Both the position numbers and the translations under genes were made by a program. Shown here piece after piece: positions 17,552 to 43,285 of a stretch of DNA of 43,322 nucleotides (its first letter is position 1; each line of letters opens with the position of its first letter). Source of the DNA: Thermoproteota archaeon (GTDB lineage: Archaea; Thermoproteota; Thermoprotei; Thermoproteales; Thermocladiaceae); NCBI GenBank assembly GCA_013154355.1, contig JAADCU010000038.1, forward strand, positions 1 to 43,322, in the 5' to 3' direction. The notes below the pieces were generated by a model. The model had not been told where the DNA came from, made no database searches, and worked only from the letters and a program-made list of their open reading frames with translations.

Positions 17552-19414
17552 TTAGCTTGGTAGTTCTATATCATTTCTCTTCAAGTTCTCTATAACATCA
17601 TCTAGCTCAAGTTTTCTCAGAGTCTCTATACGAGGTATACCATTCTCGTTCCATCCCCTATACTTGTAGTATAGTTGTAGCATCTTATCGTAAGTCTCTC
17701 TATCTATCCTTGCACCTCTCCTAGGTCCCTTGCTAAGTGGCTCGTTAAACCATCTTTCAGGTGGGTAATCATACTCTTTTCTCCAATGTCCAAACTCTCT
17801 GATCCAGTAACATCTTATTACGTTGTATACTCTTTCTGCAATAGTCATCAAGTAGTCTAATGTTATCTCAAGTCCTGTAGCTGCTCTGAGAGCCTTAACA
17901 TAATAGTCGAGGTCTAGTCCAAACTCTACCCACTGTAATCTACAGGTTCCTATACATTCAAATATTCCTCCACGTATGTTCTGCATCCATATTAGCTTCT
18001 GAACCTTCTCTTCTATACTCATGTTAGGATTCTTAAGCTCAATACTTATGAACCATGCATCTTTATGATGAGCACCTATTGGACTTGTAGCATATGCTAA
18101 AGCCATTCCTGGAGCAATGTGACAGTTATATGCTGATACTTCAACATTTTTACAATGCATTGCAAACTTCCTAGCTTCAGGATACTTCTCGATGATCTTT
18201 CCAACACCTTCAGCAAGTAGATCACCTATTCCTCTACGATATACGATCATCTCTATCATCCGTGTAGCGGCTTCAGCATCGCCAAATCTCAGCTCTATTC
18301 CTCCAGTATCTTCTCTAGTTATAAGCTTCTTCTCGTAGAGCTCCATTGCTAGGCCGATCACGTTTCCTAGAGAGATAGTATCAACGCCATACTCATCACT
18401 TAGCTTAACCATGTATGCTACGTGTAGTAGATCATCTATTCCAAGGTTAGCACCAAGCATGGCTACTTGCTCATAGTCAAGCTCTACAATATGTTTACCG
18501 AACCTACACAAGTTACCACATGGTGTTGGACAGGAGTAGCATCCACGTGTTCTATATTTTAGAAACTTCTCCATTACATCTCCAGATATCTTCTCAGCAT
18601 TATCAAAGACTCCTTCCTTAAAGTTCATTACTGGTAGACAACTATTCTCATTACTCCACAATATTGTTAGCATTGTTCCCTGCCCGATCCATGTATTGTA
18701 GAGCTGAGAACTTCTTAAACGATTTACAACATCTTTCAACATATCTATCAGAGAGTCTAGATCGTGAACTGGTATGTCTAGACTACCTCTCACAGCTATA
18801 GCTTTCAACTTCTTCGACCCGAGAACTGCGCCTACTCCTGGCCTACCTCCAGCTCTACCGTAGTCATGTATTATGTTAGCATACTTTACAAGGTTCTCAC
18901 CTGCGGGACCTATACATGCTACTGCACACTCACGTCCATGACGCTCCTTCAAGATGTTCTCACACTGGGTTGTTGTTGTTCCCCATAGATCATCTGCGTC
19001 AAGTATCTCGCATCTACCATCTTCAACATATATGTATACTGGTCTCTCAGACCTACCTTCAATAATTATAGCGTCAAATCCAGCATACTTAAGCATTGGT
19101 CCAAAATATCCTCCAAAGTTACCATCACAGTATCCATTAGACTCTGGAGACTTACATCCAACAACACATTTACCACTACCAGCAACAGGAAGACCTGTCA
19201 ATGGTCCTGTAGCAAATATGACCTTGTTATCAGGACCTAGAGGATCTATCCTAGGATAGGTCTCATCTAGCAGGATCTTAGCTATGAACCCTCTACCACC
19301 AAGAAATCTCCTTATCAGATCCTTACTAGTATCCTCTATCTTGTACTTTCTTCTTGATAGATCTACCCTAAGTATCTTTCCTGTATATCCTCCCTTCACA
19401 TCATGCTGAGACAT
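17552..19414 (-). CDS. aor: Aldehyde ferredoxin oxidoreductase (tungsten-dependent)
   Basis: GGYTGKILRVDLSRRKYKIED...FLGGRGFIAKILLDE; ATGPLTGLPVAGSGK; CYSCPTPCGN; YDYPPERWFNEPL. Confidence 0.95.
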   Translation of the reverse strand: MSQHDVKGGYTGKILRVDLSRRKYKIEDTSKDLIRRFLGGRGFIAKILLDETYPRIDPLGPDNKVIFATGPLTGLPVAGSGKCVVGCKSPESNGYCDGNFGGYFGPMLKYAGFDAIIIEGRSERPVYIYVEDGRCEILDADDLWGTTTTQCENILKERHGRECAVACIGPAGENLVKYANIIHDYGRAGGRPGVGAVLGSKKLKAIAVRGSLDIPVHDLDSLIDMLKDVVNRLRSSQLYNTWIGQGTMLTILWSNENSCLPVMNFKEGVFDNAEKISGDVMEKFLKYRTRGCYSCPTPCGNLCRFGKHIVELDYEQVAMLGANLGIDDLLHVAYMVKLSDEYGVDTISLGNVIGLAMELYEKKLITREDTGGIELRFGDAEAATRMIEMIVYRRGIGDLLAEGVGKIIEKYPEARKFAMHCKNVEVSAYNCHIAPGMALAYATSPIGAHHKDAWFISIELKNPNMSIEEKVQKLIWMQNIRGGIFECIGTCRLQWVEFGLDLDYYVKALRAATGLEITLDYLMTIAERVYNVIRCYWIREFGHWRKEYDYPPERWFNEPLSKGPRRGARIDRETYDKMLQLYYKYRGWNENGIPRIETLRKLELDDVIENLKRNDIELPS

Positions 19415-19808
19415 ACCTTATAGCACCTGTAGGACAGATCTTAACGCATTCCGGGTCTCCACCACATAGATCACATTTGACTGGAACCTTAAGATTCTCT
19501 ATCTTCCTGATAGCTCCATAGGGACAAGCCTTTGCGCAGTCTCCACATCCTGTACATCTCTCCTCTAGTATCTTAACTATTCCATCTTTTACAACTATGG
19601 CATCGTACTCACAGGCACGAGCACAGTATGGTGGATCACAGTGCCTACAGACTCTAGCATCTATCTGTACCTCATCCTTCAATACTGTGAGAACTATCCT
19701 TATCCCTGACTTAGCCATGTTGACGCTACGATAATGCTTATATGAGCATGCTAGCTCGCATAGATGACAACATACACACTTCTCAGTATCTACATCTATT
19801 CTTGGCAC
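19401..19808 (-). CDS. 4Fe-4S ferredoxin (AOR partner, HycB/DMSO-reductase B-like)
   Basis: CVCCHLCELAC, CRHCDPPYCARAC, CTGCGDCAKACPYGAI, CDLCGGDPECVKICPTGAI; start overlaps aor. Confidence 0.93.
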   Translation of the reverse strand: MPRIDVDTEKCVCCHLCELACSYKHYRSVNMAKSGIRIVLTVLKDEVQIDARVCRHCDPPYCARACEYDAIVVKDGIVKILEERCTGCGDCAKACPYGAIRKIENLKVPVKCDLCGGDPECVKICPTGAIRYVSA

Positions 19809-19847: not shown

Positions 19848-19896
19848 TCAGCACGTGGAATCCTCGTCACGCCTCAGTGTGAATACGCCTCATCAC
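19848..19896 (-). ncRNA. Box C/D sRNA, predicted to target two neighbouring 23S rRNA domain I sites
   Basis: Minus strand: GTGATGA(C)-GGCGTATTCACA-CTGA(D')-GGC-GTGACGA(C')-GGATTCCACGTG-CTGA(D). Guide complements TGTGAATACGCC and CACGTGGAATCC resemble 23S ...ACACGTGG(A/T)ATCCTGT.TGAATA.G.... Confidence 0.93.
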
Positions 19897-32123: not shown

Positions 32124-32729
32124 ATGAAGGTTGGCGTAGTTAGATACGGTGTTGGTAACATAGGTAGCGTGATTAATGCATTAAGAAAGCTCAACATAGA
32201 TCATATAGTGATCACTAGAGAATCTGAGATAGGTGACTGTGATGTCGTGATACTTCCAGGAGTTGGTTCTTTTGATGCAGCTATAAGATATATAAGATCG
32301 ACGCTTCCCATCGTAGAGAAGTTGAAAGGTATCAAACCTGTCGTAGGCATATGCCTAGGCATGCAGATAATGTTTGAGAGAAGTGAGGAAGGAGCTCTCT
32401 CAGGACTATCCTGGTTCAAGGGAGAAGTAAGAAGACTACAAAGCAGAGTCGTACCTCACATGGGGTGGAACAGTGTTGACATAGTTAGAGAGACCATGCT
32501 TGACGTCAGGTCTGGTGACTACTTCTATTTTGCGCATAGCTACTGCATCTACTCTAATGATATCGATCCTAGTATACTCCTAGGTAAGACGGTTTTCGAA
32601 AGTTCTGAGTTTTCTAGTATAATATTTGATGAGAAAAACATGATTCTAGGAACTCAGTTTCATCCTGAAAGAAGTAGTAGAACTGGTCTCAGACTTCTAT
32701 CAAGCTTCTTCAAGCTATGTAGAAAATGA
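32124..32729 (+). CDS. hisH: Imidazole glycerol phosphate synthase subunit HisH
   Basis: VVRYGVGNIGSVINALRKL, ILPGVGSFDAA, GICLGMQIMFERSEEG, PHMGWNSV, GTQFHPERSS. Confidence 0.95.
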   Translation: MKVGVVRYGVGNIGSVINALRKLNIDHIVITRESEIGDCDVVILPGVGSFDAAIRYIRSTLPIVEKLKGIKPVVGICLGMQIMFERSEEGALSGLSWFKGEVRRLQSRVVPHMGWNSVDIVRETMLDVRSGDYFYFAHSYCIYSNDIDPSILLGKTVFESSEFSSIIFDEKNMILGTQFHPERSSRTGLRLLSSFFKLCRK

Positions 32730-32778
32730 TCAGCAAATTGGCCCATCCTCACCGCTCAGGGCGCGAAAACTTCATCAC
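32730..32778 (-). ncRNA. Box C/D sRNA, C box overlapping the hisE stop codon; predicted 16S and 23S rRNA targets
   Basis: Minus strand: GTGATGA(C)-AGTTTTCGCGCC-CTGA(D')-GCG-GTGAGGA(C')-TGGGCCAATTTG-CTGA(D). hisE ends AAG TGA within AAGTGATGA. Confidence 0.92.
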
Positions 32779-33077
32779 TTGGACGTTCTCTCTTGATGTC
32801 TCTTCTCTAGGAGTCTAACAACGTCTCTAATACTTAATCCCTTGTACCTTAGAAGTACTAGAAGATGGTATATTAAGTCAGCTGTCTCCTCGATAAGTCT
32901 CTCATTAGATTCTGATAAGGCTGCTATAGCAACCTCACCACTCTCTTCTATTACCTTCTTACATATCTTTCCTAGCCCAGCTGACACTAGTCTCCAGGTA
33001 TAGCTGCTCTCACTTCTTGAAGCTATCCTGTCATCGATTATTTTCTCAAGCTTTAGTAGAAACTCTATATCACTCAT
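32775..33077 (-). CDS. hisE: Phosphoribosyl-ATP pyrophosphatase
   Basis: SYTWRLVSAGLGKICKKVIEESGEVAIAALSESNERLIEETADLIYHLLVLL. Confidence 0.94.
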   Translation of the reverse strand: MSDIEFLLKLEKIIDDRIASRSESSYTWRLVSAGLGKICKKVIEESGEVAIAALSESNERLIEETADLIYHLLVLLRYKGLSIRDVVRLLEKRHQERTSK

Positions 33078-34296
33078 GTTCTCTACATCTTAGACTTTCC
33101 TTATGAAGCACCATATTTTCAATCTCTGCAAGCTTGATACCGTGCTTAAGAAGCTCCTTATCATAGCTCTCACATATCACTATCCTCTTCATGAAGTCTA
33201 TCGGAGTCATTGTACCTCTAGATCTAGCAAATCCTGAAGTTGGAAGAACATGACATGGACCTGCAACATAGTCCAGATATGCACAAGGAGCATTGAACGA
33301 TACTACACCCACGTTACGAACCTTCTCAACTATCTTGAGACCATCTCTACGTGATATTACCTCAAGATGTTCAGGTGCCACCTCATTAATTATCTCTACA
33401 GCTTCATCAATATTGTTAACCTTCACAGTATAGAGAGATCCAAGCATCTTTTCTCTACAATACTTCTCATATTCTCTTTCAAATATATCAAGTATGTTCT
33501 CTGAAGGTGATATTACAAGGCAGATACTATGAACACCATGCTCGAGCTCTGCCAACGCATCAAGAACAGTACACTCGAGTTCTCTAGATTCTACAGAATC
33601 ATCAATGTAGATTACGAGCTCTGTAGGTCCCTCGATACCATCTATATCGACTGTTTTCGATACCAGGTACTTAGCAGCCTGTATATATATGTTACCTGGC
33701 CCAAATATCTTATCAACCTTCTTCACTGTCTCCGTACCATATGCCATAGCTGCTATTCCTGCTACACCATTACCAACATAGATGTCTCTTATCTTCAGTA
33801 GTCTAGCTACGAGAGCCATCTCAGGACTTATGAGAGAGTTCTCTAATGGTGGTGTAAACATGATTATCTCTCTACATCCCGCTACTCTAGCAATTGTGCA
33901 TAGCATTATCATTGTGGAGATGTATCCCTTAGGAATGTATATTCCTACACGATCTATAGCAATATTCTTCACTTTAAATATGGTGCTTCCTAGTATAACT
34001 ATCTCGTTCTTCGGAATAAGCTTCTTATTGAACTCTCTCACTCTACTAATCACGGTCTCGATGCTCTCTCTGACGTCTGTACTTACCTTGCTAGCTAGCT
34101 CATTTATGAGATCGTTGCTTACTTTCACGTTCTCTATCTTTACGTTATCTATCTTCTCGGTGTACTCGATTATTGCCTTATCTCCTCTATCCTTTACGTC
34201 TCTAACAATGTTTTTTACTTTCTCTACAGCTTGCTCTATTTCAATTCCTCTTCTCACCTTATGTATCTCATCTAAGCTAATTCTCATCTCTTCCAC
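33070..34296 (-). CDS. hisD: Histidinol dehydrogenase
   Basis: VGIYIPKGYISTMIMLC, KIFGPGNIYIQAAKYLVS, IEGPTELVIYID, AELEHGVHSI, APEHLEV. Confidence 0.95.
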   Translation of the reverse strand: MEEMRISLDEIHKVRRGIEIEQAVEKVKNIVRDVKDRGDKAIIEYTEKIDNVKIENVKVSNDLINELASKVSTDVRESIETVISRVREFNKKLIPKNEIVILGSTIFKVKNIAIDRVGIYIPKGYISTMIMLCTIARVAGCREIIMFTPPLENSLISPEMALVARLLKIRDIYVGNGVAGIAAMAYGTETVKKVDKIFGPGNIYIQAAKYLVSKTVDIDGIEGPTELVIYIDDSVESRELECTVLDALAELEHGVHSICLVISPSENILDIFEREYEKYCREKMLGSLYTVKVNNIDEAVEIINEVAPEHLEVISRRDGLKIVEKVRNVGVVSFNAPCAYLDYVAGPCHVLPTSGFARSRGTMTPIDFMKRIVICESYDKELLKHGIKLAEIENMVLHKESLRCREHE

Positions 34297-42425: not shown

Positions 42426-42473
42426 GTGATGATGCTTGTGAGGTCTGACCAGTGAAGAGCTGGGCTGAGCTGA
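42426..42473 (+). ncRNA. Box C/D sRNA between polB and rpl2
   Basis: GTGATGA(C)-TGCTTGTGAGGT-CTGA(D')-CCA-GTGAAGA(C')-GCTGGGCTGAG-CTGA(D). TATA-like AGATATTAAA at 42394-42403, ~26 nt upstream of the 5' end. Confidence 0.92.
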
Positions 42474-42520
42474 CAATCTTTATAAAGACTCTATCTACGT
42501 CTCGATCTCGAGGTTCCTAG

Positions 42521-43285
42521 ATGGGTAAGAGGATACTAGTCCAGCGTAGAGGAAAAGCTGGACCAACATTCATAAGCCCAAGCTGGAGAAGACCTGGACC
42601 TGTCAAGTACGTTCCACCAGATGAGGTACAGATGAATGGTGTTATAAGAGGAGTAGTCAAGGAGCTACTTCACGTGCCTGGCCTAAACGCTCCCGTAGCT
42701 CACGTGATGTTAGAAGATGGTAGAGAGATGTACATGTATGCTGTAGAGGGAATGTATGTTGGACAGATGATAGAGATAGGAGCAGAAGCAAAGATAGCGA
42801 CAGGAAACGTGTTACCACTCTACAAGATACCTGAAGGAACAATGGTATGTAACGTAGAGAAGCAGCTGGGAGATGGTGGAAAATTTGCAAGATCAGGAGG
42901 CACATATGCAGTCGTCTTATCACATAAGCCAGAAGAGAGGAAGACGGTACTACAGTTACCAAGTGGAAAAACTATAGAGGTAGACTCTAGAGCTAGAGCA
43001 ACAATAGGCATCGTAGCAGGTGGAGGAAGAATAGAAAAGCCGTTCGTAAAAGCAGGAAAGAAGTATCATAGAGCAAAAGCAAAGTCCTGGAAGTACCCAA
43101 CAGTGAGAGGAAAAGCAATGAGCCCATATGCACACCCACATGGAGGAGGACATCACCCAACTGGAAGCCCACCAGTAGCAAAGAACGCACCACCAGGACA
43201 GAAGGTAGGACACATAGCTGCAAGATGTACTGGAAGAAGATGCCCACAGATCATACCATACGAACAGAGACGCAGAAGAAGATAA
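42521..43285 (+). CDS. rpl2: 50S ribosomal protein L2
   Basis: KRILVQRRGKAGPTFISPSWRRPGPVKY...AHPHGGGHHPTGSPPVAKNAPPGQKVGHIAARCTGRR. Confidence 0.96.
   Translation: MGKRILVQRRGKAGPTFISPSWRRPGPVKYVPPDEVQMNGVIRGVVKELLHVPGLNAPVAHVMLEDGREMYMYAVEGMYVGQMIEIGAEAKIATGNVLPLYKIPEGTMVCNVEKQLGDGGKFARSGGTYAVVLSHKPEERKTVLQLPSGKTIEVDSRARATIGIVAGGGRIEKPFVKAGKKYHRAKAKSWKYPTVRGKAMSPYAHPHGGGHHPTGSPPVAKNAPPGQKVGHIAARCTGRRCPQIIPYEQRRRRR

Follow-up and report, generated by a model that had tools for sequence, protein, structure and literature searches.

A conserved box C/D sRNA with the hisE stop codon inside its C box in a genus of Thermoproteales

The sRNA between hisE and hisH

We analysed a stretch of 43,322 nucleotides (the window) from contig JAADCU010000038.1 of an uncultured hot-spring archaeon of the Thermoproteota, in which a complete archaeal box C/D sRNA lies on the minus strand at 32778-32730, recognised by its boxes and guides, between two genes of histidine synthesis. 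On the same strand and upstream of it, hisE (32775..33077, minus strand) encodes a phosphoribosyl-ATP diphosphatase of 100 amino acids (TIGR03188, 98.4 bits, cut-off 42.7) and ends with AAG TGA. Its start is overlapped by the upstream gene hisD (33070..34296, minus strand; TIGR00069, 339.7 bits), with which it presumably shares a common transcript. The convergent gene hisH (32124..32729, plus strand; TIGR01855, 190.6 bits) ends with the stop codon TGA at 32727-32729.

Read on the minus strand from 32780 to 32730, the sequence is AAG TGA TGA AGTTTTCGCGCC CTGA GCG GTGAGGA TGGGCCAATTTG CTGA, with TCC before AAG and TCA after the last box. Box C (GTGATGA, 32772..32778, minus strand) is composed, in the hisE frame, of the third base of the last lysine codon (32780-32778) and of the tandem stops TGA TGA, and the hisE stop codon (32777-32775) occupies its bases 2-4. 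It is followed on the same strand by the 12-nt D' guide AGTTTTCGCGCC (32760..32771), box D' (CTGA, 32756..32759), the 3-nt linker GCG (32755-32753), box C' (GTGAGGA, 32746..32752), the 12-nt D guide TGGGCCAATTTG (32734..32745) and box D (CTGA, 32730..32733). Boxes D' and C' were defined by sequence and by comparison within the genus. Since no nucleotide separates box D from the stop codon of hisH on the opposite strand, the sRNA occupies the entire gap between hisE and hisH. The minus-strand sequence thereby confirms the proposal of the first-pass annotation that the hisE stop codon is located inside the C box of a same-strand sRNA; the layout given there was correct for D', the 3-nt linker, C', the 12-nt guide and D, but omitted the first 12-nt guide between C and D'.

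Both the order and the spacing of the boxes are those of archaeal C/D sRNAs: C (RUGAUGA), D' (CUGA), C' (RUGANGA, here GTGAGGA) and D (CUGA), with 12 nt between C and D', 3 nt between D' and C' and 12 nt between C' and D. The window contains two copies of the full spaced motif, compared to an expectation of 0.00 (0 in 100 dinucleotide-preserving shuffles). An Rfam scan of the sRNA span returned no family at its gathering score. At a relaxed threshold, the two top families over the exact span and strand were both archaeal C/D families, sR1 (RF01152; 32.6 bits, E 5.9e-07) and snoPyro_CD (RF00095; 29.3 bits, E 1.4e-04), which are alike in box order and spacing but stay below their 45-bit gathering scores. 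The guides differ from those of sR1 and snoPyro_CD, and the sRNA is therefore not a member of either family.

Conservation and predicted rRNA targets

The sRNA is present between convergent hisE and hisH genes in all five genomes of the genus that were compared (G000 to G004). Box D abuts the hisH stop codon in G000, G001 and G003, and is separated from it by 11 nt in G002 and by 7 nt in G004. In two other genera of the same family (g2 and g4), hisE is followed by hisH on one strand, whereas both genes are convergent here; thus, the sRNA marks a site of operon rearrangement in this genus. This resembles Nanoarchaeum equitans, where C/D sRNAs border on genes that have been rearranged or split (PMC3491384) and likewise lie at junctions of altered gene order, with the difference that operon genes were rearranged here and no single gene was split.

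The TGATGA of box C is invariant in the five genomes, and so is the D' guide core GTTTTCGCGCC. The D guide reads GGGCCAATTT in four of them and GGGCCATTGT in G004. While the DNA of the hisE region is only 77% (G003), 59% (G002) and 57.5% (G004) identical to the window, the sRNA keeps 48, 46 and 43 of its 51 positions in the same genomes (range 43-51 over all five), and its variation is mainly confined to the linker and the guide ends, except for two internal changes in the D guide of G004. A lack of guide conservation in relatives had been named beforehand as a reason to discard the sRNA. This objection fails because the guides are kept in the sister species, with an altered D guide in G004.

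When 84,980 species were searched for the D' guide together with boxes D', C' and D, 13 matches were obtained; the only archaeal ones were G001-G004, and the other nine came from scattered bacteria, as expected by chance. The D' guide behind a C box was found five times in the rest of the order outside the genus, and none of these matches was followed by a C/D layout. Elsewhere, model R1 for the most part picked up other C/D sRNAs, whose guides are different.

Searches for 16S and 23S rRNA in the five genomes of the genus, including that of the window, retrieved none, and because of this both target assignments are based on the rRNAs of relatives. Over 12 nt, the D' guide is perfectly complementary to the 16S rRNA sequence GGCGCGAAAACT, which is present in six genomes of the same family and in one other genome of the order (seven in total); other members of the family and order carry GGCGCGAATACT, GGCGCGAAACCT or GGCTCGAATACT at this site. 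Against the 16S rRNA of one relative (G033), the perfect match corresponds to a duplex of -19.7 kcal/mol. The D guide can pair over 11 nt with the 23S rRNA sequence CAAATTGGCCC in genomes of the same family, with a duplex of -18.0 kcal/mol; the variant AGGGCCATTGTA of G004 fits this site poorly. Among permuted guides, 12 nt were reached by 0.08%, and 11 nt or more by 0.18%. With same-family rRNAs, both guides show complementarity next to D' or D. The base that is methylated under a C/D guide follows from the N+5 rule. With positions numbered according to E. coli rrsB and rrlB, the D' guide would most likely direct 2'-O-methylation of a C in 16S rRNA (predicted Cm, E. coli-equivalent 361), and the D guide most likely that of a U in 23S rRNA (predicted Um, E. 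coli-equivalent 1679).

Fused and detached copies of the sRNA

Judged from sequence comparison, the locus very probably encodes a canonical dual-guide sRNA of the archaeal box C/D type, with a length of about 50-55 nt. At its 5' side it overlaps hisE, and it would be released from the hisDE mRNA and guide rRNA methylation. In this proposal, TGATGA would provide both the tandem in-frame stop of hisE and the box C core. In this species, the sRNA most likely has no promoter of its own, and hisDE transcription would supply the precursor. Binding of L7Ae, Nop5 and fibrillarin to the C/D and C'/D' motifs would shield the body of the sRNA, and trimming of the ends would free it from the 3'-terminal part of the hisDE mRNA. 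Most archaeal C/D genes have no promoter, and the box motifs are sufficient for maturation (PMC7994747).

A comparison of the hisE 3' ends across the sister species, which had been suggested as a check, revealed that four out of five keep the stop codon fused to the C box. In G000, G001, G002 and G003, the hisE stop is the first TGA of box C, and the last codon is always a lysine codon (AAG or AAA) whose third base provides the R of RTGATGA. In contrast, hisE of G004 ends with TAG, 40 nt upstream of box C, and here (locus L050, G004:C104) a TATA-like sequence TTTATAAG is located 32-25 nt upstream of TGATGA, which is about the archaeal TATA distance expected for an RNA that starts just before box C. 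At the expected interval upstream of the sRNA, no box comparable to TTTATAAG was detected in the four fused copies, where the best TATA-like score was 5-6, compared to 8.5 in G004 (ad hoc consensus). In a HisE tree with 19 rows, the genus was weakly grouped (80/87), and G004 was placed on a long branch. In G002, hisE (L049, G002:C35) has a C-terminal extension with SIDK as its last residues; its stop codon is nevertheless located in box C, as though the frame had been extended up to that box.

These data provide a natural comparison, in which one sRNA is fused and has no visible promoter in four species, and is detached and preceded by a TATA-like box in a fifth. With one genome and one TATA-like box, the comparison weakly hints that expression may depend on the host gene when the sRNA is fused and be independent when it is detached. 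It fits a model in which archaeal C/D sRNAs can derive from host mRNAs or be transcribed from promoters of their own, and through its detached copy G004 can be compared with the other species with regard to the gain or loss of a promoter. Processing from the hisDE mRNA, as postulated in the first-pass annotation, is in this way indirectly supported and matches the prevailing archaeal model (PMC7994747). An own promoter inside hisE would instead allow independent transcription and reduce the common stop to mere compaction. About 20% of archaeal C/D genes do have an upstream TATA-like motif (PMC7994747), and G004 carries a good one, but the low scores of the four fused copies make such a promoter improbable for them; a weak or unusual promoter within hisE is conceivable.

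Regulation, frequency and known counterparts

The overlap itself could also be regulatory: L7Ae bound to the C/D K-turn would act against terminating ribosomes, or excision of the sRNA would shorten the hisDE mRNA, so that HisE and sRNA output would be traded off. A single transcript would serve either hisE translation up to the stop or binding of box C, as both uses of TGATGA at once are impossible on one molecule. The fusion is also kept in four species, and translational control by L7Ae via K-turns is documented, although in 5' UTRs (PMC5539422). Yet the fifth species retains the sRNA without the fusion, and the identical fusion is found at six other ORFs of this genome, so that it is not peculiar to histidine synthesis. 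In addition, reporter tests of 3' overlaps showed no effect or a slightly negative one, according to the account of Tripp et al. 2017 given in PMC7994747, and Thermoproteales lack the l7ae 5' UTR that is required for the documented L7Ae control (PMC5539422). A regulatory role of the overlap is thus very unlikely, and the earlier suggestion that L7Ae binding competes with HisE termination or affects mRNA stability finds no support.

A further possibility is that TGATGA is kept to couple histidine synthesis to ribosome modification. Since termination on hisE and sRNP assembly would be mutually exclusive on each transcript, the translation state of hisDE would then set the guide-RNA output, or the reverse. 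We consider this very unlikely. Gene ends are enriched for C/D look-alikes because TGA is part of the C and D boxes, but a chance string without a functional sRNA is hardly credible when the D' guide is invariant in five genomes in which hisE DNA has diverged to 57-59%, the sRNA is conserved even where it is unlinked from the hisE stop and the guides match rRNA.

In the genome of the window, a pattern search for boxes C, D' and C' yielded 40 matches, compared to two for a reversed control; merging these and adding loci resulted in 37 distinct C/D candidates, a few of which may be due to chance. In seven of the 37 (homology was checked for hisE only), an ORF of at least 80 amino acids has the first TGA of box C as its stop codon. 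Published frequencies are in agreement: 25% of the archaeal C/D genes include the stop codon of an upstream gene whose 3' end they overlap, and box C is its location in nearly half of these (PMC7994747, summarising Tripp et al. 2017). The novelty that the first-pass annotation had implied is consequently not given: a stop codon in box C is a common and described arrangement (PMC7994747). As these 3'-overlapping genes are presented in PMC7994747 (Tripp et al. 2017), the hisE-associated sRNA resembles them in its strand, in the stop codon of the same-strand upstream ORF lying in box C, in the absence of a visible promoter and in the presumed release from an mRNA 3' end. It differs by its guide pair and by hisE as host gene, neither of which appears in the part of that literature available to us, and by the comparison of five species. 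The sRNA is a real, conserved and previously unannotated RNA, whereas its kind and its arrangement are already known in archaea. With it, a little-studied genus of Thermoproteales gains a guide RNA that is clearly conserved, and the picture of how C/D sRNAs work stays unchanged.

Further C/D sRNAs were encountered during the analysis. A second full box C/D sRNA is located in an intergenic region of the window (19848-19896, minus strand; GTGATGA ... CTGA GGC GTGACGA ... CTGA) and precedes the start of the ORF at 19401-19808 by about 40 nt. A third candidate (42426-42474, plus strand; GTGATGA ... CTGA CCA GTGAAGA ... CTGA) lies between a divergent ORF of 878 amino acids and the ORF at 42521, with the TATA-like sequence CTTAAAAG upstream. 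A different C/D sRNA, with guides near AGTTCTCGAGT and GGCTCGCATAT, is conserved in the genus (L025, L026 and L027 in G003, G001 and G000, respectively), and in the G000 copy an ORF of 261 amino acids ends at or near the D box.
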